Of a stretch of 41,915 nucleotides of DNA, positions 4,917-34,761 are shown piece by piece; the stretch's first letter is position 1; each line of letters starts with the position of its first letter. The notes beneath the pieces were generated by a model. It was not told where the DNA came from. It was given only the letters and a program-made list of their open reading frames with translations, and made no database searches. This stretch comes from a virus. Both the position numbers and the translations under genes were made by a program. Where the stretch lies: the IMG/VR virus record IMGVR_UViG_3300028384_000793, positions 1 to 41,915 of that record. One strand, written 5' to 3'.

Positions 4917-5762
4917 TTACACCGCCGTCATTGTTGCGAAATGTGCTTCCGTATAACCAGCGGCAACCAATGCTGATTTCGTGTAAACATTACCGTTTAC
5001 GTTGTAACTTGGCTCGGTTGGTGCTGGTGGCGGTGTCACTACTGGTGGCGGTGTTGTGTTAGCACCAGGCTGAACCAAGTCGTGCGCCGGTGTCACTGGC
5101 GGTGTGTTCGCTGCTGGCGGTGTGTTCGCTGCTGGCGGTGTTTCACCACCTGTAACACCAGCGAACGCGCTCGCCGCGTCAAATGCGTTTTCACTGATAA
5201 TCTGCTCACCTTTACGCATGTACACCACGCCGCGTGGGTTCAGATAAACACCTGGCGACTGTGAAGGTTGACCGTTCTTGTCGGTGTTGTCAGCGACGTT
5301 GATACAGACAGTGTAATAATCACCAGTGTGAACGTCGTTTTCACCAGTAATACGATCAAACGGGCTATACTTTCCACAAGGGTAAACAGGCACATCCAAT
5401 TGTGTTGAGCATTTGATGATCCAATGACCAGGATGACCGGTTGTTTCACTGTTTTTACGGTTGTTTTTGTTCGGCACAGTGGAGTCACCGTCTTCAACTT
5501 TCCACGCGAAATCGTGACGTGTGGTCATGTCTTTGTATGCGGCAAGACCGATTGCATAAATTTCTTGACCCCAAGTGGTCTGCTTCCAATCTGTTTCCGC
5601 ACCTTTTGGAACCGCTAACGAAAAGTACACTTGTGTAACAGGTGTCACTTTATCAGCGGCCATAACCGGTTGATTTTGGTTGTCCGTTTTAGGGAAACGC
5701 TTTAGCGGGTGACCCATTACGATTCGACCTTCGATATTAATGTCTTTGCTTGAAATTGGCAT
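4917..5762 (-). CDS. Phage single-stranded DNA-binding protein (DUF2815/Enc34-like)
   Basis: The product is 281 aa. The ATG at 5762 follows GAGG. The N-terminal two thirds fit the Enc34/DUF2815 ssDNA-binding fold: GRIVMGHPLKRFPK, YFSLAVPKG near 48, GHWIIKCST near 113, DYYTVCINVADN near 149 and GVYLNPRGVVYM near 172. The C-terminus (about 205-250) is a Pro/Ala linker with duplicated AANTPP units. It ends in a short domain (YNVNGNVYTKSALVAAGYTE). A flexible Pro-rich tail is common in SSB-like proteins and may recruit partners. It lies between nuclease and exonuclease genes, as expected for a replication or recombination function. Confidence 0.8.
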   Translation of the reverse strand: MPISSKDINIEGRIVMGHPLKRFPKTDNQNQPVMAADKVTPVTQVYFSLAVPKGAETDWKQTTWGQEIYAIGLAAYKDMTTRHDFAWKVEDGDSTVPNKNNRKNSETTGHPGHWIIKCSTQLDVPVYPCGKYSPFDRITGENDVHTGDYYTVCINVADNTDKNGQPSQSPGVYLNPRGVVYMRKGEQIISENAFDAASAFAGVTGGETPPAANTPPAANTPPVTPAHDLVQPGANTTPPPVVTPPPAPTEPSYNVNGNVYTKSALVAAGYTEAHFATMTAV

Positions 5763-5776
5763 ATCTTTTTACCTCG

Positions 5777-6937
5777 TTATTTAACGTTAAACATCATTTT
5801 AATTCGGTCAGTAGTGGCAGTTGCCAACTTCCATCCCGTCTTAGGTTTTTCACTGTATTCATTTATGACGGACTCGTCAACACCTTTTTTCAAAACTTGT
5901 GTTGGTGTTGCTAATTCGCGCGGTTTACGAAGGTCTACACCTAGTAAATCACCCATGCTGATCACTTCGTTTTGGTCAATGTCTTTCCTCCAACGTAGTC
6001 GTCCGAATGTTTCTTCCGCGATTAATGCTGGTAACGACTCACCCTGGCGACTGTACACGATAGCTGATTCTTCCAACGCTTTTAAACGCGCTTCTAACTG
6101 GTCTTTGATGTTCCGTAATTGGACAATCTCGACAGACAAGTTTATACCACGTAACTCGTTTCCCACGGACGAACCGACATAATCCATACCATCATATACT
6201 TGACGCTGGAAAAGTTCACACGTACGACGACACGACGCGTTATAGCAGTGTGAACCTGTCTTACATGAACCACCTTGTAATGATTTTTGAGCGGCAAGAA
6301 TCATTATGTTTTCATAGTTACGAAGTTCATCACTTGTCACGATCCATGACCGACAAATACCGTCGCGGTGAAATCCGCGCGGTTGGAACACTCGCAAGTC
6401 AAACGTCCAACCAGACCGTTCGACGTTCGGTATCTGATTAATCAGACCGATTGCATAAGCCAACAATTGCCAACATTCGAACACTTCCACAATAGATCGA
6501 CCATATTTAGCATCCCATACAGTGATGGTTCGTTTTGATGGGTTCACAACCCAACAGTCAGCAATTGAGTACGCACCGTCTTCAAACACATCCAAATTGA
6601 TCCGTTCTTCGACATGAAGTTCACGAGACGATCCGGCGTTGTTGTAAACGGAAGCGATGTCGTTCACATACTCGCGAGCGTGATCATACATGTCATCGTC
6701 AAACGGCATACCGTGTGCCGACAATTTGCCGACAAACGTATCACGGTGTAACGTGTCGTCAGATTGATCATAAATGGCGGTCAAAATACGTTGCGCGATT
6801 TCATGAAAGGCCAAACCTTCCAACGCGGCCTCACTTCTTTCTTCACCTTCGATGAACGGTTTGGGGTGTTGAGATTGTAGCGACAAAGCGCCGCTACAAT
6901 TCACCCACACATTCGCATTGTGTGCGGTTATACGCAT
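5777..6937 (-). CDS. PD-(D/E)XK nuclease, DUF2800 (RecB/Cas4-like exonuclease)
   Basis: The product is 386 aa, starting at the ATG at 6937 just after GAGGTG and one base after the upstream stop. A conserved AFHEIAQRIL segment lies near residue 55. The core VWDAKYGRSIVEV near 160 supplies the Asp and the D-x-K-like catalytic residues, followed by CWQLLAYAIGL, as in DUF2800. Four Cys in the order C, HC, C, C lie near 233-248 (SCKTGSHCYNASC, then RRTC), resembling the iron-sulfur clasp of AddB/Cas4 nucleases. The role is probably DNA-end processing in phage recombination, with the neighbouring ssDNA-binding protein as a partner. Family is firm; the Fe-S cluster is inferred. Confidence 0.85.
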   Translation of the reverse strand: MRITAHNANVWVNCSGALSLQSQHPKPFIEGEERSEAALEGLAFHEIAQRILTAIYDQSDDTLHRDTFVGKLSAHGMPFDDDMYDHAREYVNDIASVYNNAGSSRELHVEERINLDVFEDGAYSIADCWVVNPSKRTITVWDAKYGRSIVEVFECWQLLAYAIGLINQIPNVERSGWTFDLRVFQPRGFHRDGICRSWIVTSDELRNYENIMILAAQKSLQGGSCKTGSHCYNASCRRTCELFQRQVYDGMDYVGSSVGNELRGINLSVEIVQLRNIKDQLEARLKALEESAIVYSRQGESLPALIAEETFGRLRWRKDIDQNEVISMGDLLGVDLRKPRELATPTQVLKKGVDESVINEYSEKPKTGWKLATATTDRIKMMFNVK

Positions 6938-6938
6938 G

Positions 6939-7919
6939 TTACACCTCGACGCTGTTAAGGAACTCGGCAACCTGTGGAATTAGTTCAGGACGTTTTGCCA
7001 ATGCTGTGAATTCAACATCGTATTTCGCTTTAACCATATCTTTGATTGTTGCAGACTTGGTTGAATCGCCAGCACATTTTGCTGACAACATTTTCACCAA
7101 TCCGACAAAATTAACAACCTCGACACCGACCTGTGTAGACCCAACATGTGCAGGGTTTGGTGCGGGTGGTGGTGGTGTCTGGTCGTCTTGCTCTAACTTT
7201 GGGGTGTCCACCACTGGTGGTGGTGGTGGCGTGATGTCAGGCTGCGAGGCAGTAACATCCGCTTGCTGAGTCTCTACATTCTTCGCATCCGCTGGTGACT
7301 TTGGGGTGTCCACCACTGGTTGTTCGTCTTTAAACTCTGTTTCAATTGTATCGACACGAAGTTCGTTGAACAATTCTTCACTGATCAAATCAATGATTTC
7401 ACCGTGACCACCATTTGTGATCTGCTCATACTCTTCATCATTTCGGATGATTCCGACTTCGTCACTCCCGTTATAACGCCAGTATAAAGGGTAATCGCTT
7501 GAAGGAGTTTCAACAGGAATAGACATCAACGTTGTCAATTCTGCTTCAACTTGTTTGATGAATTCAGCCCATTGGTCAGCGGACATGTCTTTTGGCTTCT
7601 TGCGCTTTTTCCACGAACCGTCCGCGTTTTGCGTTTTGTTACCACTGTGAATACGTTCATCCCACGGTAATTGTGGTTCGTCGGTAACAGTTTGGTCAGC
7701 TTTTGCAAGTACTTCCTCAAACCCTTTAATATCGACAGATTGTTCGTCAACACCATGCGTAAGCAGTTCCGATCGACCTACTTGTTGAGCAGTTGACGCT
7801 TCACTGTGTGTAACGGTTTCAACGTACCCGCGAGCCTTTGCCATGTTGACCAATGCTTCACCCAAGTATTGTTGAGCAATTAAGTCGTCTTCGTTGAATT
7901 CTAATTTGATAGTAGCCAC
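6939..7919 (-). CDS. Hypothetical protein with LPWDERIH motif and Pro-rich linker
   Basis: This is the first gene of the leftward operon, 326 aa. I chose the GTG at 7919 because GAGGAA lies 8-9 bases upstream; the ATG at 7955 lies inside the operator and has no RBS. Near residue 90 the chain reads LPWDERIH, then NADGSWKKRKKPKD. I know this motif from many phage proteins of uncertain function. Two copies of VVDTPK flank poly-Pro stretches near 205-250. The C-terminal 75 residues form a separate helical domain (LVKMLSAKCAGDSTKSATIK). A role in replication is inferred from position only. Confidence 0.75.
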   Translation of the reverse strand: MATIKLEFNEDDLIAQQYLGEALVNMAKARGYVETVTHSEASTAQQVGRSELLTHGVDEQSVDIKGFEEVLAKADQTVTDEPQLPWDERIHSGNKTQNADGSWKKRKKPKDMSADQWAEFIKQVEAELTTLMSIPVETPSSDYPLYWRYNGSDEVGIIRNDEEYEQITNGGHGEIIDLISEELFNELRVDTIETEFKDEQPVVDTPKSPADAKNVETQQADVTASQPDITPPPPPVVDTPKLEQDDQTPPPPAPNPAHVGSTQVGVEVVNFVGLVKMLSAKCAGDSTKSATIKDMVKAKYDVEFTALAKRPELIPQVAEFLNSVEV

Positions 7920-11562: not shown

Positions 11563-11883
11563 ATGCTACAAGAACGAAAAACACGAGAAACCACCGAGGC
11601 AAAGCGTATCGAGCTTTTGAACGAAGGTTTGAAACACGCCATTTCGATCGGTTGGGAAAATTTCACACGTGAGTCATTTTGTACTCATATGGGTATTGCT
11701 GTTGGTTCAATCAATTACCACTTCAAAGATATGACAGGTTTCCGTCGTGCTATTATGCGAAAAGCCATTGCAAAACGTGAGGTGGCAATTGTGGCCGGCG
11801 GGATTGAGTCACGTTGTCCAGTTGCCAAATCCGCACCGGAGTCACTAAAGAAACAAGCAATTGCATACATGATGGAAAACTAA
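11563..11883 (+). CDS. TetR-type HTH transcriptional regulator, HTH-only length
   Basis: The product is 106 aa, with the ATG at 11563 preceded by AGGA. Residues about 17-65 fit a TetR N-terminal DNA-binding domain: a first helix ending in GW, then FTRESFCTHMGIAVGSINYHF, where GSINYHF corresponds to the gt-YxHF signature that follows the recognition helix, then FRRAIMRKAIA. The usual C-terminal ligand/dimer domain of TetR proteins is missing; only a 40-residue tail follows. The gene lies directly behind a promoter bracketed by two palindromic operators, so it is my leading candidate for the protein that binds TGAC-N6-GTCA. The HTH is well supported; the binding site assignment is inference. 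Confidence 0.8.
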   Translation: MLQERKTRETTEAKRIELLNEGLKHAISIGWENFTRESFCTHMGIAVGSINYHFKDMTGFRRAIMRKAIAKREVAIVAGGIESRCPVAKSAPESLKKQAIAYMMEN

Positions 11884-11907: not shown

Positions 11908-14262
11908 ATGCAAAAATTACCAAGTGCGCTAGAACCGCTGAGCGCGTGGGATCAATTCGTCTGTTGGAAACCTGTCCCCAGCAAGACAAGACCGGGCAAA
12001 ATCGACAAATTCCCGTGCACAAAAAACGGTAAAATCATCGATGCACACGATTCATCACATTGGTTGTCAGCATCAGAAGCCTGTGCAAGTGGTTTAGATA
12101 TTGGGTTCGTGTTCACTTCTAACGATCCGTTCTTCTTTCTCGACATCGATGATGCGTATGACGGCGCGGCATGGTCAACCCTTGCAACACAACTTTGTAC
12201 TGACTTTGCTGGTGCGGCGGTCGAGGTGTCTCATTCTGGAACCGGTTTACATATTATCGGTCGATACGATGGTGATGAACCGGATCACGCTTGTAAAAAC
12301 ATTCCTTTGCATTTAGAACTTTACACGTCCGGTCGATTCGCTGCTCTGACGGGTAGTGGTGCTACCGGTGACGCATCAGTTGTTAAAGACTTGACCGCTG
12401 TTATAAACGGATACTTCCCCAAGTCGGCCGACACCGAACGACCTAACGCAGAATGGACGACGACGCACGTTGAAGGTGCTTATCCTATTGCGGACGACAA
12501 ATCACTCATTGCAAAGGCGTGTGAGTCCACCAGCATGTTTGGCCAAAGCGCACCGTTTAAAGCATTATGGGCGGGTGACGGTGAAACACTAAGTCAGTTC
12601 TACCCAGACGACGGCGGTCAGGAACGTGCATATGATGCAAGTAGTGCGGACGCCGCCCTTGCTCAACACCTTAGTTGGTGGACTGGCGGGGATTGTGAAC
12701 GTATTGACCGTTTGATGCGTTCCAGCGGTCTTGCCCGTTCCAAGTGGGACAACCACAAGTCGTACATGCAACGCACCATTCTAAACGCCACCGCACGCAC
12801 GAAAAGTTATTATGACAAAGGTAAACCAGTCGAAGTAGTAGAAGCCATTGGGAACAAGCCTACGTTGAAAGACTTGAATCAATTTGTACCAGTTGACCAA
12901 CAAGAAAGCATGTTCGAAGGTTGTGTGTACGTGTGCGATATTCACCGTGTCTTTACGCCTCGTGGTACGTTGATGAAGAAAGAACAGTTTAACAGCATGT
13001 ACGGCGGTTATCGCTTTAGCACCGATCATGACAACACCAAGACAACATCGAGCGCGTGGGACGCCCTTGTCGAATCACAGGTGTTCACCTGGCCGAAGGT
13101 CGAGTCGTCGTGCTTCCGTCCAGACTTACCGAGTGGGCATATCATTGAGAAAGAAGGTGTGCGTTACGTCAACGTCTATGTACCACTTGATATTAAGTAT
13201 ACCCGTGAAGACGTCACTCCATTTATGAATCACCTCAAAAAGCTTTTACCAGACGAACGTGATCAAACGATCCTACTGTCTTACATGGCCGCGTGCATTC
13301 AATACAAAGGTTATAAAATTCAATGGGCGCCACTGATCCAAGGTGTCGAGGGTAACGGTAAAACATTATTTACTCGCTGTTTGAAATACGCGATTGGTGA
13401 TAAGTATTCCCACATGCCCAAGGCGTCTAAGATTGACAGTGAGTTCAACGGGTGGTTGCTCAACAAGTTGTTTATTGGTGTAGAAGATATTTACGTCCCT
13501 GAACATCGCCGTGAAATTCTCGAAACTTTAAAACCTATGATCACGGGTGGTGACGGTTTAGAGATTCAATTGAAAGGTGTTGACCAGGTGACTCGTGACA
13601 TTTGTGCTAATTTCATGCTGAACTCGAACCACAAAGACGCAATCAAGAAGACACTAAACGACCGTCGATACTGTGTGTTTTACACGGCGCAACAAGACGC
13701 GTTGCACGTCATTCGTGACGGTATGACTGGTGAGTATTTTCAAAAGTTGTACGATTGGTTGAACAACGGTGGGTATGCGGCTGTTGCTGGCATGTTGGAA
13801 GACTACATTATCCCTGCTGAGTTCAACCCAACCGGTGAATGCCAGCGTGCACCGACCACATCGTCCACCAGCGAAGCGGTATCACAAGGTATGGGTAGTG
13901 TTGAACAAGAAATACTCGAAGCTATTGACGAAGAACGGACTGGGTTTGCTGGTGGTTGGGTGTCAAGTTTGGCACTAGATAACCTTATTCGTGACCTACG
14001 CAAAGACAGCATGTTACCACGCAACAAACGCCGTGAAGTGATGAAATCGTTAGGTTATGACTACCACCCGAATTTGAAAGACGGGCGAGTGAATAACGGC
14101 ATACCAATCGACGGAATGAAAAAACCGCGACTGTATATTCGTGACGGACACCTAGCGTTGAACTTAACGAAACCTGTGGAAATCGCTCAACAGTACGCAC
14201 ACGATCAAGGTGACAATCTTGCATCGAATATTTTAGTTGACAGCACCGTCAAACAAGTGTAA
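11908..14262 (+). CDS. Primase-helicase (prim-pol-like N-terminus, SF3/DUF5906-type helicase)
   Basis: This 784 aa protein probably primes and unwinds DNA at the fork. The N-terminal part resembles bifunctional primase/DUF3987-type proteins (FVCWKPVP, then DIGFVFT and FFFLDIDDA near 70, SHSGTGLHIIG near 110, LELYTSGRF near 135). The LDIDDA acidic cluster is a likely metal site. The C-terminal helicase has Walker A GVEGNGKT near 480, LFIGVEDIY near 520 as Walker B, and FMLNSNH near 570 as sensor 1. The ATG at 11908 is preceded by CGAGG. The last codons overlap the next operator promoter. Family is clear at the helicase end; the primase assignment rests on weaker similarity. Confidence 0.85.
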   Translation: MQKLPSALEPLSAWDQFVCWKPVPSKTRPGKIDKFPCTKNGKIIDAHDSSHWLSASEACASGLDIGFVFTSNDPFFFLDIDDAYDGAAWSTLATQLCTDFAGAAVEVSHSGTGLHIIGRYDGDEPDHACKNIPLHLELYTSGRFAALTGSGATGDASVVKDLTAVINGYFPKSADTERPNAEWTTTHVEGAYPIADDKSLIAKACESTSMFGQSAPFKALWAGDGETLSQFYPDDGGQERAYDASSADAALAQHLSWWTGGDCERIDRLMRSSGLARSKWDNHKSYMQRTILNATARTKSYYDKGKPVEVVEAIGNKPTLKDLNQFVPVDQQESMFEGCVYVCDIHRVFTPRGTLMKKEQFNSMYGGYRFSTDHDNTKTTSSAWDALVESQVFTWPKVESSCFRPDLPSGHIIEKEGVRYVNVYVPLDIKYTREDVTPFMNHLKKLLPDERDQTILLSYMAACIQYKGYKIQWAPLIQGVEGNGKTLFTRCLKYAIGDKYSHMPKASKIDSEFNGWLLNKLFIGVEDIYVPEHRREILETLKPMITGGDGLEIQLKGVDQVTRDICANFMLNSNHKDAIKKTLNDRRYCVFYTAQQDALHVIRDGMTGEYFQKLYDWLNNGGYAAVAGMLEDYIIPAEFNPTGECQRAPTTSSTSEAVSQGMGSVEQEILEAIDEERTGFAGGWVSSLALDNLIRDLRKDSMLPRNKRREVMKSLGYDYHPNLKDGRVNNGIPIDGMKKPRLYIRDGHLALNLTKPVEIAQQYAHDQGDNLASNILVDSTVKQV

Positions 14263-14279
14263 TTTTGACGGTGTTACTT
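14237..14279 (+). promoter_or_regulatory. Promoter/operator, also a 10-bp inverted repeat
   Basis: TTGACA (14237-14242) is followed after 17 bases by TAATTT (14260-14265). A full operator TGAC-AGCACC-GTCA lies at 14238-14251. A half site TGAC follows at 14266, again 28 bp downstream. In addition, CACCGTCAAA and TTTGACGGTG form a 10-bp inverted repeat with an 11-base loop, which could fold as a hairpin in RNA. It spans the primase-helicase stop codon and could both attenuate upstream and start downstream transcription. Confidence 0.5.
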
Positions 14280-14301
14280 TAATCAATCGAGGGTTTGAAT
14301 A

Positions 14302-14823
14302 ATGAAATACGCGTACGCAAACAAACGAGTAAAAATCGAAAGCAAGGAACACCTTAACCACGTTATCAAATTGACGGGCATGGTTATTAATAACAAGTCG
14401 ACACTAGAACGCACATTCGAAAAAGCAGGTCATAAGTTATATTTATTTTTTGGCAAAAGCTTTGACGATGAAAAAGAGCACTGGTTTTACGGTCACAGTG
14501 TGTCATTCGAAGGTACACACGAGTTCGAAGAAATCTTTATTCCTTTACCTGACTCGACCCTAAAAGACGAACATTGGAATGGTGTCACGTCGTTACGCGT
14601 CGGTCATATTGTACACGGTGGTGAAGTTGTTGCTGTCGGTGATGGTCAAGTGTGTATCATCAATGAATACGGTGCGTTACGTGTGCACCTGTTGCGTGAT
14701 GTGAAACCCGCTAAAAGTAAGGCAGAACAAGTGGCTGAGGAATACTGGGACTTGAACGACGGTGCAGTAGATCTCACCGCTTACACTCAATGGTTGATTG
14801 ACAATGACAAATTGCAAAGCTAA
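14302..14823 (+). CDS. Hypothetical protein
   Basis: The product is 173 aa, with ATG at 14302 after CGAGGG. It is a mixed alpha/beta protein with many aromatic residues (LYLFFGKSF, HWFYGHSVSF) and a compact repeated His/Gly turn (RVGHIVHGGEVVAVGDGQV). The C-terminal 35 residues are acidic (EEYWDLNDGAVDLTAY). I recognise no family. It is the first gene after the operator promoter at 14237 and overlaps the next gene by 20 bases. Confidence 0.7.
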   Translation: MKYAYANKRVKIESKEHLNHVIKLTGMVINNKSTLERTFEKAGHKLYLFFGKSFDDEKEHWFYGHSVSFEGTHEFEEIFIPLPDSTLKDEHWNGVTSLRVGHIVHGGEVVAVGDGQVCIINEYGALRVHLLRDVKPAKSKAEQVAEEYWDLNDGAVDLTAYTQWLIDNDKLQS

Positions 14824-14968: not shown

Positions 14969-15186
14969 AGCGGTTAGAGCTCGGCGAAGACGTATTGCTT
15001 CCTGCTGGTACAAGTCGAGAAGAGGTTGAACGTGTGTGGTATGTTGACCTTGGTCATGATGAAGAGATCGACATTGTGTGCACCGACCTGGGCGTGACAG
15101 CCCACATGGTTGACAGTGACAATTTTGATAATATATTAATGGTGACGATAGCAATATGTTTAATCTTGATAGTCTTGATCGTTTAG
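14941..15186 (+). CDS. Small protein with C-terminal membrane segment
   Basis: The product is 81 aa, with the ATG at 14941 preceded by GGAG. The N-terminal half (KERLKRLELGEDVLLPAG, then TSREEVERVWYVDLGH) resembles short phage proteins often annotated as HTH-like. The last 18 residues are Ile/Leu/Val rich (MVTIAICLILIVLIV) and form a likely membrane anchor. Cytoplasmic-membrane location is inferred. The tail overlaps the next gene by 31 bases. Confidence 0.55.
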   Translation: MRATIKERLKRLELGEDVLLPAGTSREEVERVWYVDLGHDEEIDIVCTDLGVTAHMVDSDNFDNILMVTIAICLILIVLIV

Positions 15187-15545
15187 TATTTGGAACCACA
15201 ACCAAGCCGACCAAAAAATACACGCCCCGACGTATTGAACGTTCGGGGCGTTTTTGGAATACGGGCAATGACGATGTGTTGCGCCACTGGTTCAAAGTTC
15301 GCAAGTTCAGTGTCAAAGAGTGTGCAAGTCGCAGCGGTTACAGTGAACGGTGTATTCGTCAACAATTGGAGCGTCTCGACCTGACTGTCAGACAGTTTGA
15401 GCATTGGACGGGCAAAGATGACAAAGTGTTACGCGAACTGTGGTCACGTCGTCCGAATGGCTCATGGTGTGCACGTGAAATGAATAAGGTCGGACGAACT
15501 GTCAGAAAACGGATCAAAGAATTGGGATTAAAAAAGCCGTCCTAG
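15156..15545 (+). CDS. DNA-binding protein with two tandem HTH domains
   Basis: The product is 129 aa. After a basic N-terminal arm of about 30 residues come two similar helix-turn-helix units. The first is WNTGNDDVLRHWFKVRKFS, then VKECASRSGYSERCIRQQL. The second is WTGKDDKVLRELWSRRPNG, then WCAREMNKVGRTVRKRIKEL. Each has the W-x3-DDxxLRxxW pattern followed by a recognition helix, as in GcrA/SANT-like repeats. It is the last gene of the rightward early operon. A strong terminator hairpin lies inside its 5' part, so expression may depend on attenuation or antitermination. Its stop codon lies in the terminator of the convergent gene. Confidence 0.7.
   Translation: MFNLDSLDRLVFGTTTKPTKKYTPRRIERSGRFWNTGNDDVLRHWFKVRKFSVKECASRSGYSERCIRQQLERLDLTVRQFEHWTGKDDKVLRELWSRRPNGSWCAREMNKVGRTVRKRIKELGLKKPS
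15222..15255 (+). terminator. Rho-independent terminator inside the double-HTH gene
   Basis: ACGCCCCGA (15222-15230) pairs with TCGGGGCGT (15243-15251) across a 12-base loop. The right arm runs straight into TTTTT. A 9-bp GC-rich stem plus U-tract is a textbook terminator, yet it lies 66-100 bases inside the 15156-15545 coding frame. Confidence 0.7.
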
Positions 15546-15551
15546 GACGGC
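15530..15551 (-). terminator. Terminator for the leftward tandem-Cys gene
   Basis: GCCGTC, a CTAG loop and GACGGC (15536-15551) form a perfect hairpin. On the minus strand it is followed by six T (15535-15530). It ends transcripts of the gene at 15591-16703. It also contains the stop codon of the plus-strand HTH gene. Confidence 0.75.
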
Positions 15552-15590: not shown

Positions 15591-16703
15591 TTAACACCCT
15601 TTACAAGCACCATTGTTCACGCGCTTCAACGAAATCGTACCGCATTTTTTACATGGTTTATTCGGCATATACCATTCATCACCGTTCTTGATTGCTTCCT
15701 GTCTTGGTGACAAACCTTTCTTATGTGTTCTAAGAGGTTTGCATGTAGTACATTGAGACGTCTTTGCCACCCTCTCATATGATCCACAGACTTTACACTC
15801 TCTCTCTGACATATATGTTAGGTCTTTGTTGCTTAAAGCTTGTTGTCGTGGTGACTTCTTAGGTGTGCCAGCACACCCCTTGCAGTAGCCGTTGGCTACT
15901 GAACGATCAGACAATGTATTGCACTTTTCACAAGGTTTGTTAGGTGTATACCATCTCTCGCCGTTCCTGATGGCTTCTTGTCGTGGTGACAAACCGTCAG
16001 CGTGCGACCTGATAGGATGACACGTTATACATGCTGACGTTTTCGTACGACGCTCCATACCTCTGCAGGAGTGACACTTTTTAGTCGATATATATGTTGG
16101 TTGGTTGTCTCGTTGTGCTTCTTGTCGTGGTGACAAACCGTCAGCGTGCGACCTGATAGGATGGCATATGACACACTCCGACGTTTTCGTATGTCGTTCC
16201 GTACTGTCACAGGTGGTGCACTTTTTAGTTGATATATATGTTGGCTGGTTATCTCGTTGTGCTATTTTCCTAGGTGAGTTTTTCGCCATTTGCTGACAGT
16301 AGTAGCAAGCGCCTGTAGGTGTCTTGATTTTAATGTGTGAGTGTCTTTCGCAGGCTTCGAAAGTGGGTGTCAGTGATGGATCATCGTTCAGCATCATAGC
16401 AGTTTCAATCACTCGTTCCCATACGTCATCTGGAAGTTTCCACGGTTTCGCGCACTTAGTGACATTAGGAGAAACCCAAATTTCTTGTGTTTCCCAACTG
16501 ACGTGGTCGTTCTCACCTTCCAAACATTTCATCATTATAATCGTAGCAGTGGCTTCTTTCGTAATGCACGATTTGCATTTATCGTCTGTCACATATCGTT
16601 TATGTGCATACGCGTTGCACACGTTGCACGGTTCAGAAACATAATACAACGGTATATTTTTTTCTATTGCGTGGTTTTTATTAGTTGGAAATATAATAGC
16701 CAT
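15591..16703 (-). CDS. Protein of tandem Cys4 (treble-clef/zinc-ribbon) modules
   Basis: The product is 370 aa. The second half is five consecutive units of about 40-48 residues. Each starts SPRQEA or a close variant, then a Tyr, CxxC, an Arg-rich turn and a second CxxC. The third and fourth units are nearly identical, also in DNA. The N-terminus (YYVSEPC, CNVC, then RYVTDDKC, CKSC) resembles the first 45 residues of the two HNH endonucleases at 25394 and 28147 (YYTGKPC / YFTGKPC and a following CxxC). No HNH or other nuclease motif is visible here. The gene stands alone: minus strand, own terminator, large AT-rich gap upstream. DNA or RNA binding through a zinc-module array is the natural inference. 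I know no characterised member. Confidence 0.75.
   Translation of the reverse strand: MAIIFPTNKNHAIEKNIPLYYVSEPCNVCNAYAHKRYVTDDKCKSCITKEATATIIMMKCLEGENDHVSWETQEIWVSPNVTKCAKPWKLPDDVWERVIETAMMLNDDPSLTPTFEACERHSHIKIKTPTGACYYCQQMAKNSPRKIAQRDNQPTYISTKKCTTCDSTERHTKTSECVICHPIRSHADGLSPRQEAQRDNQPTYISTKKCHSCRGMERRTKTSACITCHPIRSHADGLSPRQEAIRNGERWYTPNKPCEKCNTLSDRSVANGYCKGCAGTPKKSPRQQALSNKDLTYMSERECKVCGSYERVAKTSQCTTCKPLRTHKKGLSPRQEAIKNGDEWYMPNKPCKKCGTISLKRVNNGACKGC
15973..16163. repeat. Direct 47-bp repeat inside the tandem-Cys gene
   Basis: The same 47 bases occur at 15973-16019 and 16117-16163, offset by 144 bases (48 codons, one module). They start GCTTCTTGTCG and end GATAGGATG. Near-perfect DNA identity, rather than only protein similarity, points to a recent module duplication or gene conversion. 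Confidence 0.9.
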
Positions 16704-17149
16704 GATAATTTCTCGCTGTTGAATGAATGTTGAATTGTGTAATATTCATTATATTTAGTCAACAACTGACCATATTTAATCAACATTGCAAATACACCCC
16801 AGAAAAAGCTATTTCCATAGGGGTGTATGTAACCCAGTGGTAGCGCGGCTTTAGGCGATTTTACCCAAATTTTAAGGATAGACTCTACTGGAGAATTACA
16901 TTAGTCAAATAATACGGCGTAATGCTATTATTAGTATATATTATCATTTGTATAATATACGATACTGTTTTATATATGCGTACTGTATATATTGTATATG
17001 ATGTATGTATTATATGTATGTACTATTTATTACTAACTGTATATATTGGGGTATTGGGGTATATAGTAATAAAAGGTATATAAAACAGTAGTTTAGAAGT
17101 ACCCCTAATACTAGGGTATTGACGGGGTTTTTAATGGGGTAAGGGACGT
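16704..17149. other. AT-rich intergenic region with hairpin and G-runs
   Basis: No convincing gene is seen in this stretch between the tandem-Cys gene and the terminase promoter. It holds two direct copies of TTGAYTAAATAT on the minus strand near 16751-16785. It also holds a 9-bp inverted repeat ATACACCCC / GGGGTGTAT (16792-16800 and 16820-16828). A very TA-rich tract runs from about 16900 to 17100, with two tandem TTGGGGTA units at 17046-17061. Four G-runs follow at 17114-17116, 17124-17127, 17136-17139 and 17143-17145, which could form a G-quadruplex. Its place just before the terminase genes fits a packaging (cos/pac) site or a replication origin; neither is proven. Confidence 0.5.
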
Positions 17150-17194
17150 TTGGCAAACACTGTGAAGGTGGTGCATAATGTGACAATTGAGTCA
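17150..17194 (+). promoter_or_regulatory. Late promoter of the terminase operon with operator
   Basis: TTGGCA (17150-17155), an 18-base spacer and CATAAT (17174-17179). The palindrome TGAC-AATTGA-GTCA lies at 17181-17194, directly downstream of the -10 box, as at 11526 and 7969. It precedes the first late gene. Confidence 0.6.
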
Positions 17195-17213
17195 TGTGAT
17201 TGGAGTAGATGAA

Positions 17214-17828
17214 ATGACACCCGAACAACAGAAAGCCATTGACGCTTTGCCAAGATTGGCGAGGGATGTGGTATTAGAGCGAATTAACGATCCGTTGTGT
17301 TCTCAAAGTGAATGTTATCGTCGTGCTGGTGGTGATGCTAAATCACCGAGCGGTATTAGTTCCGGTGCGTCGGAAATCCTGAACCATCCTGACGTTAAGG
17401 TCATACTTGAAAGTTTTAGAATTCCTGTCGACGATGAACGCATTGCCGGACGTGAGGAAATTTTGCGAGACTTGACAGCGTTGACGCGCATGTCAGTGTT
17501 CGACTTTTTGGACTTGATCAGCGCCGATGATGAACTTGTGGAAATGAACAGCGGTAACGTCATCACTGGCAAGACCGGAATTATCATTCGTTCAAAACAC
17601 GACATCCCTGAACACCTTCATAAGTTCATCAAATCGATCAAGCCGAAAAAAGACGGTTTAGAAATTGAGTTCCAAGACGCCGTCAAAGCGCGTCAAATGC
17701 TCGTTGACATTCAAGGCTTGGCCGAACCATCAAAAGTTGAACACAGCGGCGTCGTGGCGACACGTGAGACGTCAGACGATGAATTCTTCGAAATGTTGAA
17801 CGGTTTGGGTATCAATGCGGACAAGTGA
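17214..17828 (+). CDS. terS: Small terminase subunit (Terminase_2-like)
   Basis: The product is 204 aa. I chose the ATG at 17214, which has GGAG 9 bases upstream; the longer frame begins inside the operator. The N-terminal half contains an HTH-like DNA-recognition region (SECYRRAGGDAKSPSG, then SEILNHPDVK), typical of Terminase_2 small subunits. The middle is FDFLDLISADDELVEM. A Lys-rich segment (IKSIKPKKDG) and an acidic tail follow. It recognises the packaging site and loads the large subunit. It lies directly upstream of the large subunit with a 14-base overlap and next to the AT-rich region that may hold the recognition site. Confidence 0.8.
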   Translation: MTPEQQKAIDALPRLARDVVLERINDPLCSQSECYRRAGGDAKSPSGISSGASEILNHPDVKVILESFRIPVDDERIAGREEILRDLTALTRMSVFDFLDLISADDELVEMNSGNVITGKTGIIIRSKHDIPEHLHKFIKSIKPKKDGLEIEFQDAVKARQMLVDIQGLAEPSKVEHSGVVATRETSDDEFFEMLNGLGINADK

Positions 17829-25366: not shown

Positions 25367-25395
25367 AAGCCCTCTTAACTGAGGGCTTTTTTTTT
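25367..25395 (+). terminator. Rho-independent terminator after the major capsid gene
   Basis: AAGCCCTC (25367-25374) pairs with GAGGGCTT (25381-25388) over a 6-base loop. A run of nine T ends at 25395. Strong stem and long T-run. It separates the capsid gene from the convergent HNH gene. Confidence 0.9.
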
Positions 25396-26206
25396 AACCT
25401 ATGAAACGGTTTCCTTTCGAAAGATTGTCGAACGCCCATAGGGGTTGAAGGTTGTCGAGCGAGTTGATAATTGCAGGGTCGGTAACACCCGAATTAATCA
25501 TCGTACTGACTGGGACTATATGATCAATGTGCCATTCACCGTAATTGTCCCAACTCATACCGTCTTTGAATTGTTTCTCGATATGAGTCATTAAATCATC
25601 ACTCGTATAACCCAATAGTTCTACGGTTCTTACAATCTTACTTTCATAAGTTCTAGTTAAAACACGACCCACCATGTTTCGCATATACGTTTGCATCTTG
25701 AATTTGTTGTCGTTCTCGCGTCTTTTTCGATAGTATTCGTTTATTCGTTCTCTGTTCTTCTTGCGGTAAACCTTGTTACTAGCACCTCGTTTCTCTTTGT
25801 GTTTGGCGTAATCAGCACGCTTTTCCGCTCTCATCTTTTCAATGTTCCGGTGATAGTGGTCTTTTTTCATCGTTCTCACACGGTCTTTATTTGCTTCACG
25901 CCATTCACGGTGTTTGTCTGAATACTTCCCTCTGCGACTCTCGTTTATACGATCTCTGTTTTCTTCGCGATACTTCGACGCTTTTTTCAGGCGTTCATCA
26001 CGGTGTTTGATGTGAGAAAGCCTGTCAGATTCTTTCTTCTTTTCAGGATTGTTTATTCGTCGTCTGTTAACCCGTTCTCTAATGCACGCAACACACTTTC
26101 CGTCGTTTACATAACGTTCCGAATCGTGACCGTGTTTGCATGGTTTTCCAGTGTAATAATGAGTGAGGGATTGTTCTTTCGCGTGGGTGCGTGAAATGAT
26201 TTCCAT
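25394..26206 (-). CDS. HNH homing-type endonuclease (copy 1)
   Basis: The product is 270 aa. I chose the ATG at 26206, with AAGGA upstream; longer frames lack an RBS. The first 45 residues form a Cys4 treble-clef module (YYTGKPC, GHDSERYV, KCVAC). A long Lys/Arg/Glu-rich helical linker follows. The C-terminal HNH domain reads MSWDNYGEWHIDHIVPVS, then LDNLQPLWAFDNLSKGN. It is minus-strand, free-standing, between capsid and connector genes, as homing endonucleases commonly are. It is paralogous to 28147-28839. A self-spreading role is inferred. Confidence 0.88.
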   Translation of the reverse strand: MEIISRTHAKEQSLTHYYTGKPCKHGHDSERYVNDGKCVACIRERVNRRRINNPEKKKESDRLSHIKHRDERLKKASKYREENRDRINESRRGKYSDKHREWREANKDRVRTMKKDHYHRNIEKMRAEKRADYAKHKEKRGASNKVYRKKNRERINEYYRKRRENDNKFKMQTYMRNMVGRVLTRTYESKIVRTVELLGYTSDDLMTHIEKQFKDGMSWDNYGEWHIDHIVPVSTMINSGVTDPAIINSLDNLQPLWAFDNLSKGNRFIG

Positions 26207-26308
26207 GATGTGATCCTTGTCAAAGGTAGTCATGATGATTTGTGGCGGTCGTTGACTAGACGATGTTCCCCCGCTAAAGGTAGCCACAAAGCAAACTCTA
26301 TCAAGTTA

Positions 26309-27740: not shown

Positions 27741-28150
27741 TGGATATTACACAAGAAATGATCGACCTATTCCGCACGCGTCAGCGAGCGTTTGAAAGTG
27801 ACACAACGTGGTCGGACGACACGATCGAACAAGCCCTTTGTGAAGGTGACGCCGAAACAGGTGGTAAAGGTTGGGGGTTGTATGACACACCCTGTCAGAA
27901 CTTTAAACAACGAGGCATGTTTTTATATGCTGCTCATTACATCGCGTCGATGTATCCGAAAGGTGACGCTGGCAGTGTGTCAGGTGGGTCGAAAGGTTCT
28001 ACAGCTTCCAAGTCTGTCGGTGACGAATCAATCTCGTACGCGCGCGCAACCGTACTGACACAGGGTGACGAGTGGTTAGGTAGTACCGCGTTTGGTCAAC
28101 AGTTCATGCGACTTAGACGTCGTGCTGGGTTCGGTGCTAGAGCGGTTTAA
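27740..28150 (+). CDS. Head-tail connector protein (DUF4054)
   Basis: The product is 136 aa and starts in the stop codon of the preceding gene (TAATG). It has the usual DUF4054 order: ITQEMIDLFRTRQRAF, WSDDTIEQALCEGDAETG, a KQRGMFLYAAHYIA helix near 53-67, a Gly/Ser-rich loop and the C-terminal GDEWLGSTAFGQQFMRLRRR. Such proteins form the ring below the portal. Its 3' end overlaps the convergent HNH gene by 4 bases. Confidence 0.85.
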   Translation: MDITQEMIDLFRTRQRAFESDTTWSDDTIEQALCEGDAETGGKGWGLYDTPCQNFKQRGMFLYAAHYIASMYPKGDAGSVSGGSKGSTASKSVGDESISYARATVLTQGDEWLGSTAFGQQFMRLRRRAGFGARAV

Positions 28151-28839
28151 CCTTCGTACCTGTCCTTTTTCGACATGTTATCGAAAGCCCATAATGGTTG
28201 AAGGTTGTTGAGGTTATTGATCACCCTATGATCTCTTACACCACGTCGTATCATTAACGCCACGGGAACAATATGGTCGACGTGCCACTCCCCGTGGTTT
28301 CCCCAACTCATGCCGTCTTTGAATTGCTTCTCGATGTGCTGTCTAAACTGATCTAATGAAAAACCCATCATTGTCTTGACTGATCCGGATTTTCGTTGTT
28401 TGGTCTTAGCCAGTACCTTTCGCAACATTGTTCGACAAGTGATGTTCAACCTGTAATTCACATCGCCCGTATATCTTCGTGTGTGACGAATTCTTCTACG
28501 TTGTTTATATCTGTCTAATTTCTGGTATTCCCTCCTGTACTTTCTGTATTTCTCACTTTTCTGGTATTCTCTCTTTTTAATTCGGTGTTCTTCGTTATTC
28601 CTTCTTTCTCGTTCTAATCGGTTTGCTCGTTCTCTATTGTCGTGTACTGACATATACTTTCTTTTGTATTCTTTATTTTTACCGTTCGCTGACCTCTTTT
28701 TTTGAGCGTGATAATGACACTCCACGCATTTTCTCCCTGACACCATTCGTTCGGACACATGGCCTTTACTACACGGTTTCCCTGTGAAGTACCTTTTAGC
28801 GCCCGTTTCTTTCGCTTGTTTTATAGTTACCAATTCCAT
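28147..28839 (-). CDS. HNH homing-type endonuclease (copy 2)
   Basis: The product is 230 aa, with ATG at 28839 after GAGGAG. The N-terminal Cys4 module (YFTGKPC, GHVSERMV, KCVEC), very basic helical linker and C-terminal HNH (MSWGNHGEWHVDHIVPVA, then LNNLQPLWAFDNMSKKD) follow the same plan as 25394-26206. The HNH ends are alike even in DNA. It is inserted, on the minus strand, between connector and tail-completion genes. A homing role is inferred. Confidence 0.88.
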   Translation of the reverse strand: MELVTIKQAKETGAKRYFTGKPCSKGHVSERMVSGRKCVECHYHAQKKRSANGKNKEYKRKYMSVHDNRERANRLERERRNNEEHRIKKREYQKSEKYRKYRREYQKLDRYKQRRRIRHTRRYTGDVNYRLNITCRTMLRKVLAKTKQRKSGSVKTMMGFSLDQFRQHIEKQFKDGMSWGNHGEWHVDHIVPVALMIRRGVRDHRVINNLNNLQPLWAFDNMSKKDRYEG

Positions 28840-28883
28840 AACCCACTCCTCAGTGTATTTCACATTAATTCAGGAATGGGAGC

Positions 28884-33288: not shown

Positions 33289-33464
33289 TCGACGACGGTG
33301 TTGATTGGTATTTCATGCGCCCGTGCGTAGGTATACCACCTTTGCAAATACCACCTTTGTGTAAGTACCATGAAACGTTAGACGGTACTTACACATTAGC
33401 TGATATTGAGCGTTTTCATATTACACTTGATAAGTGGGTTGAGCGGATTTTAAATCATGGCTAA
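33225..33464 (+). CDS. -1 frame extension of the tail assembly chaperone
   Basis: The -1 frame is open from 33225 to a TAA at 33462-33464, overlapping the tape measure start. The clearly protein-like part starts after the 0-frame stop: VDDGVDWYFMRPCVGIPP, then LDGTYTLADIERFHITLDKW. The D/GxxWxFMRPC and LDGTYxLADI pattern is what I expect of the C-terminal half of myovirus tail chaperones. No RBS precedes its only internal ATG (33315), so frameshifting is the likely way of expression. A shift later than 33231, nearer the stop, cannot be excluded because the frame between 33232 and 33284 reads unlike a protein. Confidence 0.65.
   Translation, partial: FFYVCSRRPRGAKRDTGRERVVDDGVDWYFMRPCVGIPPLQIPPLCKYHETLDGTYTLADIERFHITLDKWVERILNHG
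33333..33394. repeat. Direct repeat and strong hairpin before the tape measure gene
   Basis: ATACCACCTTTG occurs at 33333-33344 and 33348-33359. GTGTAAGTACC (33359-33369) and GGTACTTACAC (33384-33394) form a perfect 11-bp inverted repeat with a 14-base loop. It lies in the -1 frame extension. No T-run follows, so it is not a simple terminator; it may slow ribosomes or affect RNA processing. Confidence 0.7.
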
Positions 33465-34761
33465 CACGATCACGAACTTTCTTGTTGGCGTCGGTTTCGA
33501 TTATGACCAAAAAGGTCAAAAGGAAATCGGTTCCGGTATTGACAATCTAAAGTCTAAAGCATTACAGCTTGGTTCCGTCGTGGCTGGTGCGTTCGGTGTC
33601 AAAGCATTGACGTCTGATTTTGCCAAGTCACGTGATGAAATCGGGAAGTTTTCAGACACGTTCGGTGTGTTGCCTGATGACGTTTTCGCGCTCGGTAAAG
33701 CATTAGAACACGAGGGTGGTTCGGTTGATGCGTTCATGTCACAACTTGCCAATCTTGAAAAAATGCGTGCTGGCATTCTCGCCGGTGACGCATCATTCAT
33801 TTCAGCAGCGGGTCGTGCCGGCATCACTGATACATCGATCATTACCAACGCAGAGAACGCAACGGAAGCATATATCGCGTTGGGTGACGTATTCGAAGGG
33901 TTGAGTCAACAAGAACGCTTGAACGCGGCCGAGGCGCTAGGTTTTGACGAGTCAAGTATTCGATTGTTGTCGAACGGTTCGGACGCTGTGTCGCATCTTG
34001 TGAGCAGACAAAAGGAAATCCGCACTGTCACAAAGGAAATGACTCAACAAGCCGCACTGTTCAACGACGAAATGCAAGACTTGTTTGGCAATATTGGTGG
34101 GTTTGCTGACAATATCAGTATGAAAGCATTGCCAGAAATAAACAAATTGATCGGTGGTATGAACGGTTGGATCGATGTAAACCGTGAATTGATTGATCAA
34201 AACATGAATGACGTGCTAGACGGAATGGGTGATCATCTTGCCGGTATTGGCGCGGCTGGTGGACTGTTGGCAAGCGGTGGACTGTTGGCGGGTCTGGCAG
34301 GAATGGCGAAACACATTCCGGTGATCGGTAAAGGAATGGGCGTGGCAGCAAGTGCGGCTGCGAAAATAACGACACTTGGCGCGGGCGCCATGATCGGCAA
34401 CGAGATTTTGAAAATCGATGGTAAAGCAGCGTTGAAAAAATTCGGAATTGATGCACCCGATTGGCTCACTAAACCTATTCGAGAATTAGAATGGTCTGAC
34501 TTCGGAATCGGGAACGACGATCCTACCGAGAAGATTGATTATTCACCTGGTTCACATTACAGTCCGAGTGACTTACCATCAACACCAGATCAATTCCCAG
34601 ACTTACCGTCGTTTGGGTCAACCAATACGCAGACGACCAGCACGCAAGTGACGGTTAATATGACGCTAGACGGCCAAGTATTAGACAAACGAATTGTGAA
34701 TGTCGTTGATGGTCAGGCCGAACTAGCGTACCAAGATATTAAATCAAACGTGGCGAATTAA
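33457..34761 (+). CDS. Tape measure protein (short)
   Basis: The product is 434 aa, following the chaperone as tape measures do. It starts with NTITNFLVGVGFDYDQKGQK, then IDNLKSKALQLGSVVAGAFG. A helical middle follows, then a Gly/Ala-rich hydrophobic stretch near 255-310 (AAGGLLASGGLLAGLAGMAK) that may insert in the host membrane. The end is a Pro/Ser-rich tail. At roughly 0.15 nm per residue the tail would be about 65 nm, short for a myovirus. Identification rests on position and these features. Confidence 0.8.
   Translation: MANTITNFLVGVGFDYDQKGQKEIGSGIDNLKSKALQLGSVVAGAFGVKALTSDFAKSRDEIGKFSDTFGVLPDDVFALGKALEHEGGSVDAFMSQLANLEKMRAGILAGDASFISAAGRAGITDTSIITNAENATEAYIALGDVFEGLSQQERLNAAEALGFDESSIRLLSNGSDAVSHLVSRQKEIRTVTKEMTQQAALFNDEMQDLFGNIGGFADNISMKALPEINKLIGGMNGWIDVNRELIDQNMNDVLDGMGDHLAGIGAAGGLLASGGLLAGLAGMAKHIPVIGKGMGVAASAAAKITTLGAGAMIGNEILKIDGKAALKKFGIDAPDWLTKPIRELEWSDFGIGNDDPTEKIDYSPGSHYSPSDLPSTPDQFPDLPSFGSTNTQTTSTQVTVNMTLDGQVLDKRIVNVVDGQAELAYQDIKSNVAN

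Follow-up and report, generated by a model that had tools for sequence, protein, structure and literature searches.

A tandem Cys4-module protein beside the phage terminase genes is probably a tamed, nuclease-free DNA-binding regulator

In this analysis, a 41,915-nt stretch of DNA from a tailed phage (IMG/VR record IMGVR_UViG_3300028384_000793, positions 1 to 41,915; hereafter, the window) was found to encode an array of Cys4 modules in a single protein. This protein is probably a tamed DNA-binding regulator, because the cutting part of homing-type proteins is never present at the place that the array occupies in phage genomes (the seat). The array gene, its modules, and its terminator are located as follows.

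15591..16703, minus strand: array gene, an ORF with an ATG start encoding 370 aa, tandem Cys4 modules and no nuclease
16566..16682, minus strand: module M1, residues 8-46, from the module profile
16296..16373, minus strand: module M2, divergent, about residues 111-136, with its C-x4-H...CxxC motif at about 118-136, from comparison with the homologue of Shewanella phage SppYZU01
16164..16277, minus strand: module M3, residues 143-180, from the module profile/HMM
16020..16133, minus strand: module M4, a tandem DNA copy of M3, residues 191-228, from the repeat search and profile
15873..15989, minus strand: module M5, residues 239-277, from the module profile
15741..15854, minus strand: module M6, residues 284-321, from the module profile
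15594..15710, minus strand: module M7, residues 332-370, from the module profile
15536..15551, minus strand: intrinsic terminator of the array gene, a GCCGTCC-TAGG-ACGGC-TTTTTT-like hairpin

A preliminary description of this DNA had counted five or more Cys4 modules, and the protein indeed contains six clear ones (CxxC-x11..13-CxxC) together with a seventh, divergent C/H module. The 370 aa include 29 cysteines, and basic residues predominate in the core array (44 K+R versus 20 D+E). The module profile matched the window protein with an E value of 5e-95, its training set having included the window's own modules, and the best reversed-protein control gave 0.08; M2 reached only a marginal score in the module HMM. 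No match at all was obtained for the window protein in the Pfam search, and the motif search detected no HNH/nuclease catalytic motif in it, in agreement with the earlier statement that such a motif is absent. As also described before, the gene is alone on the minus strand, with its own terminator and an AT-rich gap of 483 nt toward the terminase small subunit gene (terS) (32% GC versus 45%). Its convergent neighbor (window 15156-15545, plus strand) encodes a 129-aa protein with two HTH/D5-like repeats, which showed a weak match to PHROG 323 (E 4e-4).

The direct-repeat search showed that positions 15973-16116 and 16117-16260 form a 144-nt tandem copy with 83% identity, and that a second repeat in the array gene (128 nt, 279-nt spacing) is 70% identical. 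Two modules had been called nearly identical at the DNA level; the tandem copy is real, but the wording was somewhat too strong, since the best DNA copy reaches 83%. These data are consistent with a stepwise growth of the array, in which a module pair would have been duplicated first and a single module later. M7 is the window module closest to the single core module that ends the shorter homologues.

The AlphaFold2 model of the array, built with 17 family sequences, had a mean pLDDT of 84 and a pTM of 0.45; as predicted, the array is a row of well-formed beads with no fixed overall arrangement. No PDB entry was matched by sequence, and no PDB fold matched the array model at E 0.001, and fold matches among predicted viral proteins included one Yokohamavirus homologue, one Jedunavirus homologue, and a protein annotated as recombination endonuclease VII. 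The Cys4 sites would be expected to bind zinc, with which the invariant cysteines and the confident helix-strand model are consistent.

The window encodes two further proteins with a module of this type.

25394..26287, minus strand: HNH/endonuclease VII-like protein with one N-terminal module, from PHROG and the held-out HMM (E 5e-5)
28147..28863, minus strand: HNH/endonuclease VII-like protein with one N-terminal module, from PHROG and the held-out HMM (E 0.002)

Because the first module HMM contained the HNH modules of the window, the test to trust is the held-out HMM, which was trained on CxxC array modules only, with no HNH protein in the training set. In this search, both HNH proteins of the window were recovered right behind the array and above all controls (reversed proteins), indicating that the module is common to homing-type nucleases. 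The resemblance to the HNH proteins had been ascribed to the N-terminal module of the array; the resemblance stood, but it is common to all modules and not to the N-terminal one alone. PHROG 1081 connects the HNH proteins of the window with other arrays. By these profile comparisons, the window protein is built from modules common to homing-type proteins, but the absence of the nuclease places it outside the homing endonucleases. We infer that the array module binds DNA.

The window protein matched PHROG 29682 (E 5e-33, four stretches) and PHROG 20468 (E 2e-26, three stretches), two families whose function is not known. These profile matches and the conserved locus opposite terS place the protein in the same family as the members of PHROG 29682 (Yokohamavirus) and PHROG 20468 (Jedunavirus/Peatvirus), which have one core module versus five in the window. 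Array homologues were found in Klebsiella (Jedunavirus), Pectobacterium (Peatvirus), Edwardsiella (Yokohamavirus), Shewanella, and Stenotrophomonas phages and at 21 loci in IMG/VR. Among annotated phages, no close DNA relatives of the window phage were found; viral-contig scans with single proteins and with the array of Stenotrophomonas phage B2 gave no matches, and the open-access literature search returned no paper on the array family. The homologues have a variable first and second module, followed by one to five core modules with the consensus SPRQxAIxxGxxWYxPxxPCxxC....RxVxNGxCxxC, and some end in a C-x3-H module resembling those of HNH proteins. The suggestion that the repeat number may change was borne out by the 1 to 6 modules per protein at the terminase-side locus (profile detection), by two phages of one metagenome with 4 and 3 core modules, respectively, and by the tandem DNA copies. 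Among close homologues, dN/dS was 0.04-0.10, indicating strong purifying selection. Judged from these sequences, the array gene is neither a relic nor a one-off.

The seat is defined by its divergent neighbor.

17187..17828, plus strand: terminase small subunit, divergent neighbor of the array gene and first gene of the late block, PHROG 51, E 2.5e-11

In nearly all homologues, the array gene is opposite in strand to the terminase and primase genes and lies directly upstream of terS or its counterpart, between the replication block and the late block. We sampled 80 contigs by primase, so that the array itself did not drive the sampling. Most of the contigs reaching the seat encode one to five modules in a gene at that place, and this gene adjoins the conserved element described below where the element is found. 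An HNH motif was present in none of the 39 module proteins at the locus, compared with 7 of 13 elsewhere (Fisher p 1.3e-5; counts by motif regex), a contrast that is conservative because some of the genes counted as elsewhere are truncated or near the locus. The motif was likewise found in 0 of 13 module proteins on contigs ending before the terminase. The view of the protein as a recognition array freed from its nuclease is thus well supported.

Other nuclease-free proteins can occupy the same seat. In Stenotrophomonas phage B2 (40949-41797, plus strand), it encodes four HNH-type C-x3-H/CxxC modules and no nuclease; this array is annotated as "ICEA protein", which is misleading. In L073 (3870-5036, minus strand), the seat holds a 388-aa protein without a nuclease; this protein contains AP2-like repeats, and the PHROG families it matches are those of HNH endonucleases. 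In Acinetobacter phage Scuro, the seat is occupied by a different Cys/His protein.

Between the array gene and terS lies a conserved element, with the following features in the window.

16704..17186, no strand assigned: conserved divergent control element, AT-rich, from alignment and nhmmer
17048..17061, plus strand: two GGGGTA (17048, 17056), where the minus strand reads TACCCCaaTACCCC; central direct repeat of the element
17100..17105, minus strand: GGGGTA site, from the motif search
17136..17141, plus strand: GGGGTA site facing terS, from the motif search
17150..17179, plus strand: promoter-like site toward terS, TTGGCA-18-CATAAT, from a consensus scan only
16734..16762, minus strand: promoter-like site toward the array gene, TTGACT-17-CACAAT, from a consensus scan only

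Across phages, the element is 0.3-0.5 kb long and rich in (C)GGGGTA, and the gaps toward the late gene are alignable among very different phages. Scuro, B2, and the second copies of KpV52, PEAT2, and MSW-3 lie outside the element training alignment, and most others lie inside it. The most enriched 6-mers in the gaps were CGGGGT and GGGGTA, the latter with 44 occurrences versus 7.4 expected, in 13 of 14 gaps. Four of the five GGGGTA copies in the window fall inside the element; in some other genomes, GGGGTA is also common outside it. An ACCC direct repeat with a period of 8-9 was detected in 11 of 19 gaps (0.6 in shuffled sequences), and TAAgTnnnTGwT in 12 of 19 (0.3 in shuffled sequences). In several phages, although not in the window, the latter motif overlaps with matches to the IHF consensus. 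Across 21 gaps, the IHF consensus had 12 perfect matches versus 0.8 expected, and the window gap contains none. In 8 of 19 gaps, compared with a shuffled mean of 0.18, an extended -10 directed at the late genes is preceded by GGGTW at a distance of 25-27 nt, a placement that would be suitable for an activator or a repressor. The window counterpart has a spacing of 32 and a -10 without the extension.

The DNA searches showed that most Jedunavirus records have the element at more than one place. Second copies were located within the structural cluster in KpV52 (13985-14389), PEAT2 (34169-34559), and MSW-3 (13620-13917), and apparently in most Jedunaviruses, ahead of a neck-type gene. In six Jedunavirus records with the second copy before such a gene, a small divergent gene flanks it on the other side. 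In KpV52, the gene divergent from the second element, kpv52_24 (13346-13984, minus strand), encodes an HTH and a D5-like regulator domain, with a C-terminal CRKGH...CNEC motif of similar C/H type. The AT-rich center is common to both element copies in KpV52, and likewise in SCNJ1-Y, which suggests occasional gene conversion between the copies. Edwardsiella phage MSW-3 also contains a short tandem repeat (GGTACTTCCGGCGCTGCTACG...) at 33350-33546, within a coding region.

The element and the array do not always occur together. A module gene beside the element was missing in 9 of the 32 element-positive contigs with a terminase; Scuro keeps the element with another protein at the seat, and in Enterobacter Mulvp2, the element is degenerate and the first 50 kb lack a module gene. 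Strict coupling of element and array is ruled out by Scuro, Mulvp2, and these 9 primase-sampled contigs. Because the element is found with a different gene or with none, the array is not needed for it, and because the element exists without the array, the array is not its sole reader and may not read it at all. Another candidate reader is a TetR-type HTH protein encoded before the primase (window 11563-11883, plus strand; PHROG 8723), which was present in 7 of the 8 element-bearing full genomes checked and absent from Mulvp2. A weaker TetR-like match was obtained in Agrobacterium phage 7-7-1, which has neither element nor array.

We favor a regulatory role, which is plausible given that the gene keeps a fixed locus facing a conserved control region. 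Further support comes from the related DNA-binding proteins that take the same seat (B2 and L073) or stand at the second element in Klebsiella phages (kpv52_24). The array would have been built by tandem repetition of the Cys4 module found at the N-terminus of HNH/endonuclease VII-type (homing-like) phage proteins, and its gene is transcribed away from the late genes, through the divergent control region of 0.3-0.5 kb. The protein would most likely bind double-stranded DNA in or near the (C)GGGGTA control region, and would tune the switch from replication to late transcription and/or its own expression. For this whole chain, a domesticated, nuclease-free DNA-binding protein acting as a regulator at the junction of the late and replication blocks, we see about even chances. 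Unlikely, by comparison, is an expandable modular reader of phage origin, resembling TALE or zinc-finger proteins, in which each Cys4 module would aid recognition, tandem duplication would set the module number, the late switch would be set at the fixed seat, and homing modules (Cys4 and AP2-like) would have been recruited repeatedly. One module per DNA site was rejected as a simple rule, as the GGGTA count is unrelated to the module number.

Several other explanations were weighed against the regulator. The array could be accessory cargo, with the divergent promoter of the element expressing any gene placed there and the array acting on the host (takeover, anti-restriction, or other anti-defense). 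The seat holds different genes or none while the element stays, and a sigma70-like promoter faces the array gene; however, the occupants are no random mix but mostly DNA-binding modules of a single type, and many phages use the same seat, whereas cargo usually turns over faster. We consider this account rather unlikely, and the anti-defense role named in the preliminary description was not specifically supported. The element might instead be a replication origin or another DNA-processing site, bound by the array as an accessory replication or packaging factor. Its AT-rich core, direct repeats, excess of IHF matches, and position between the replication block and terS agree with this, as does the similar primase of the element-bearing phages tested. 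Against it, many phages have two copies per genome, the second before a neck gene; the window gap contains no IHF match and shows no turn in GC skew, whose minimum is at 7863, so that an origin by GC skew was rejected. Both the element and the array are retained with two unrelated types of terminase, so the element is not a terminase site; this and the second copy elsewhere in many genomes rule out a cos/pac or terminase-binding site. We regard the origin or processing account as unlikely.

Basic tandem zinc-type modules can bind RNA, and the place before the late block fits antitermination, so the array could also act on late transcripts as an antiterminator, RNA chaperone, or the like. Relatives at the seat have domains of AP2-like and HTH type, both of which bind double-stranded DNA, and RNA binding appears very unlikely. 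Most improbable of all, the array could be a homing endonuclease, decayed or parasitic, whose nuclease has been lost and which survives at a homing hot spot upstream of the terminase. The modules are common to HNH proteins, and regions upstream of the terminase are hot spots of homing-like nucleases (PMC10448857); however, the strong purifying selection, the wide conservation, the lack of any nuclease-bearing version among the 39 proteins at the seat, and the growth rather than decay of the arrays argue against it. The fixed locus and low dN/dS also argue against recent mobility into an allelic site, and the suggestion that the array controls homing found no support, given the strong purifying selection, the fixed locus, and its presence in phages with unrelated terminases.

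The tamed regulator can be compared with known systems. The HNH/endonuclease VII-type nucleases of PHROG 1035 and 1081 have a homologous N-terminal Cys module, whereas the array has no catalytic motif, carries its modules in tandem, and keeps to a fixed locus; in endonuclease VII itself, the cysteines of the zinc site are spaced differently from those of the array module. Among homing enzymes, F-CphI carries the endonuclease VII motif (PMC6083498). Domestication of homing enzymes into regulators is already known. WhiA, a transcription factor derived by domestication from a LAGLIDADG homing endonuclease (PMC3781837), is likewise a homing-enzyme protein that lost its catalytic activity and became a resident regulator, but it has an unrelated fold, is bacterial, and has a proven regulon, whereas regulation by the array is only inferred. 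The homing endonuclease I-TevI also uses its DNA-binding part to act as an autorepressor (PMC2988022); the notion that such a homing-type region represses the promoter of its own gene is similar, but I-TevI keeps its nuclease, and its domains are unrelated to those of the array. The HK97-type HNH protein, a nuclease taken into packaging upstream of the terminase/cos (PMC10448857), also adjoins the terminase, but it helps cos cleavage, whereas the array has no nuclease, lies on the opposite strand, and has an element that is kept with unrelated terminases.

The array would be a concrete and widespread example of phages taming the modules of homing-type nucleases, and at this locus the change can be traced over many genomes. 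It points to an uncharacterized late-gene control region in a group with many Klebsiella phages, and if each module does read DNA, bacterial viruses would have supplied a new modular scaffold for DNA binding. In Klebsiella phage FZ14 (GenBank MK521906), the array gene at 5536-6129 (plus strand) was left unannotated. Away from the terminase locus, Escherichia phage HelliStehle_Bas95 (519-1562, plus strand) encodes an array of four modules joined to another type of C-terminal domain, and the gene is one of a series of small genes on the same strand.
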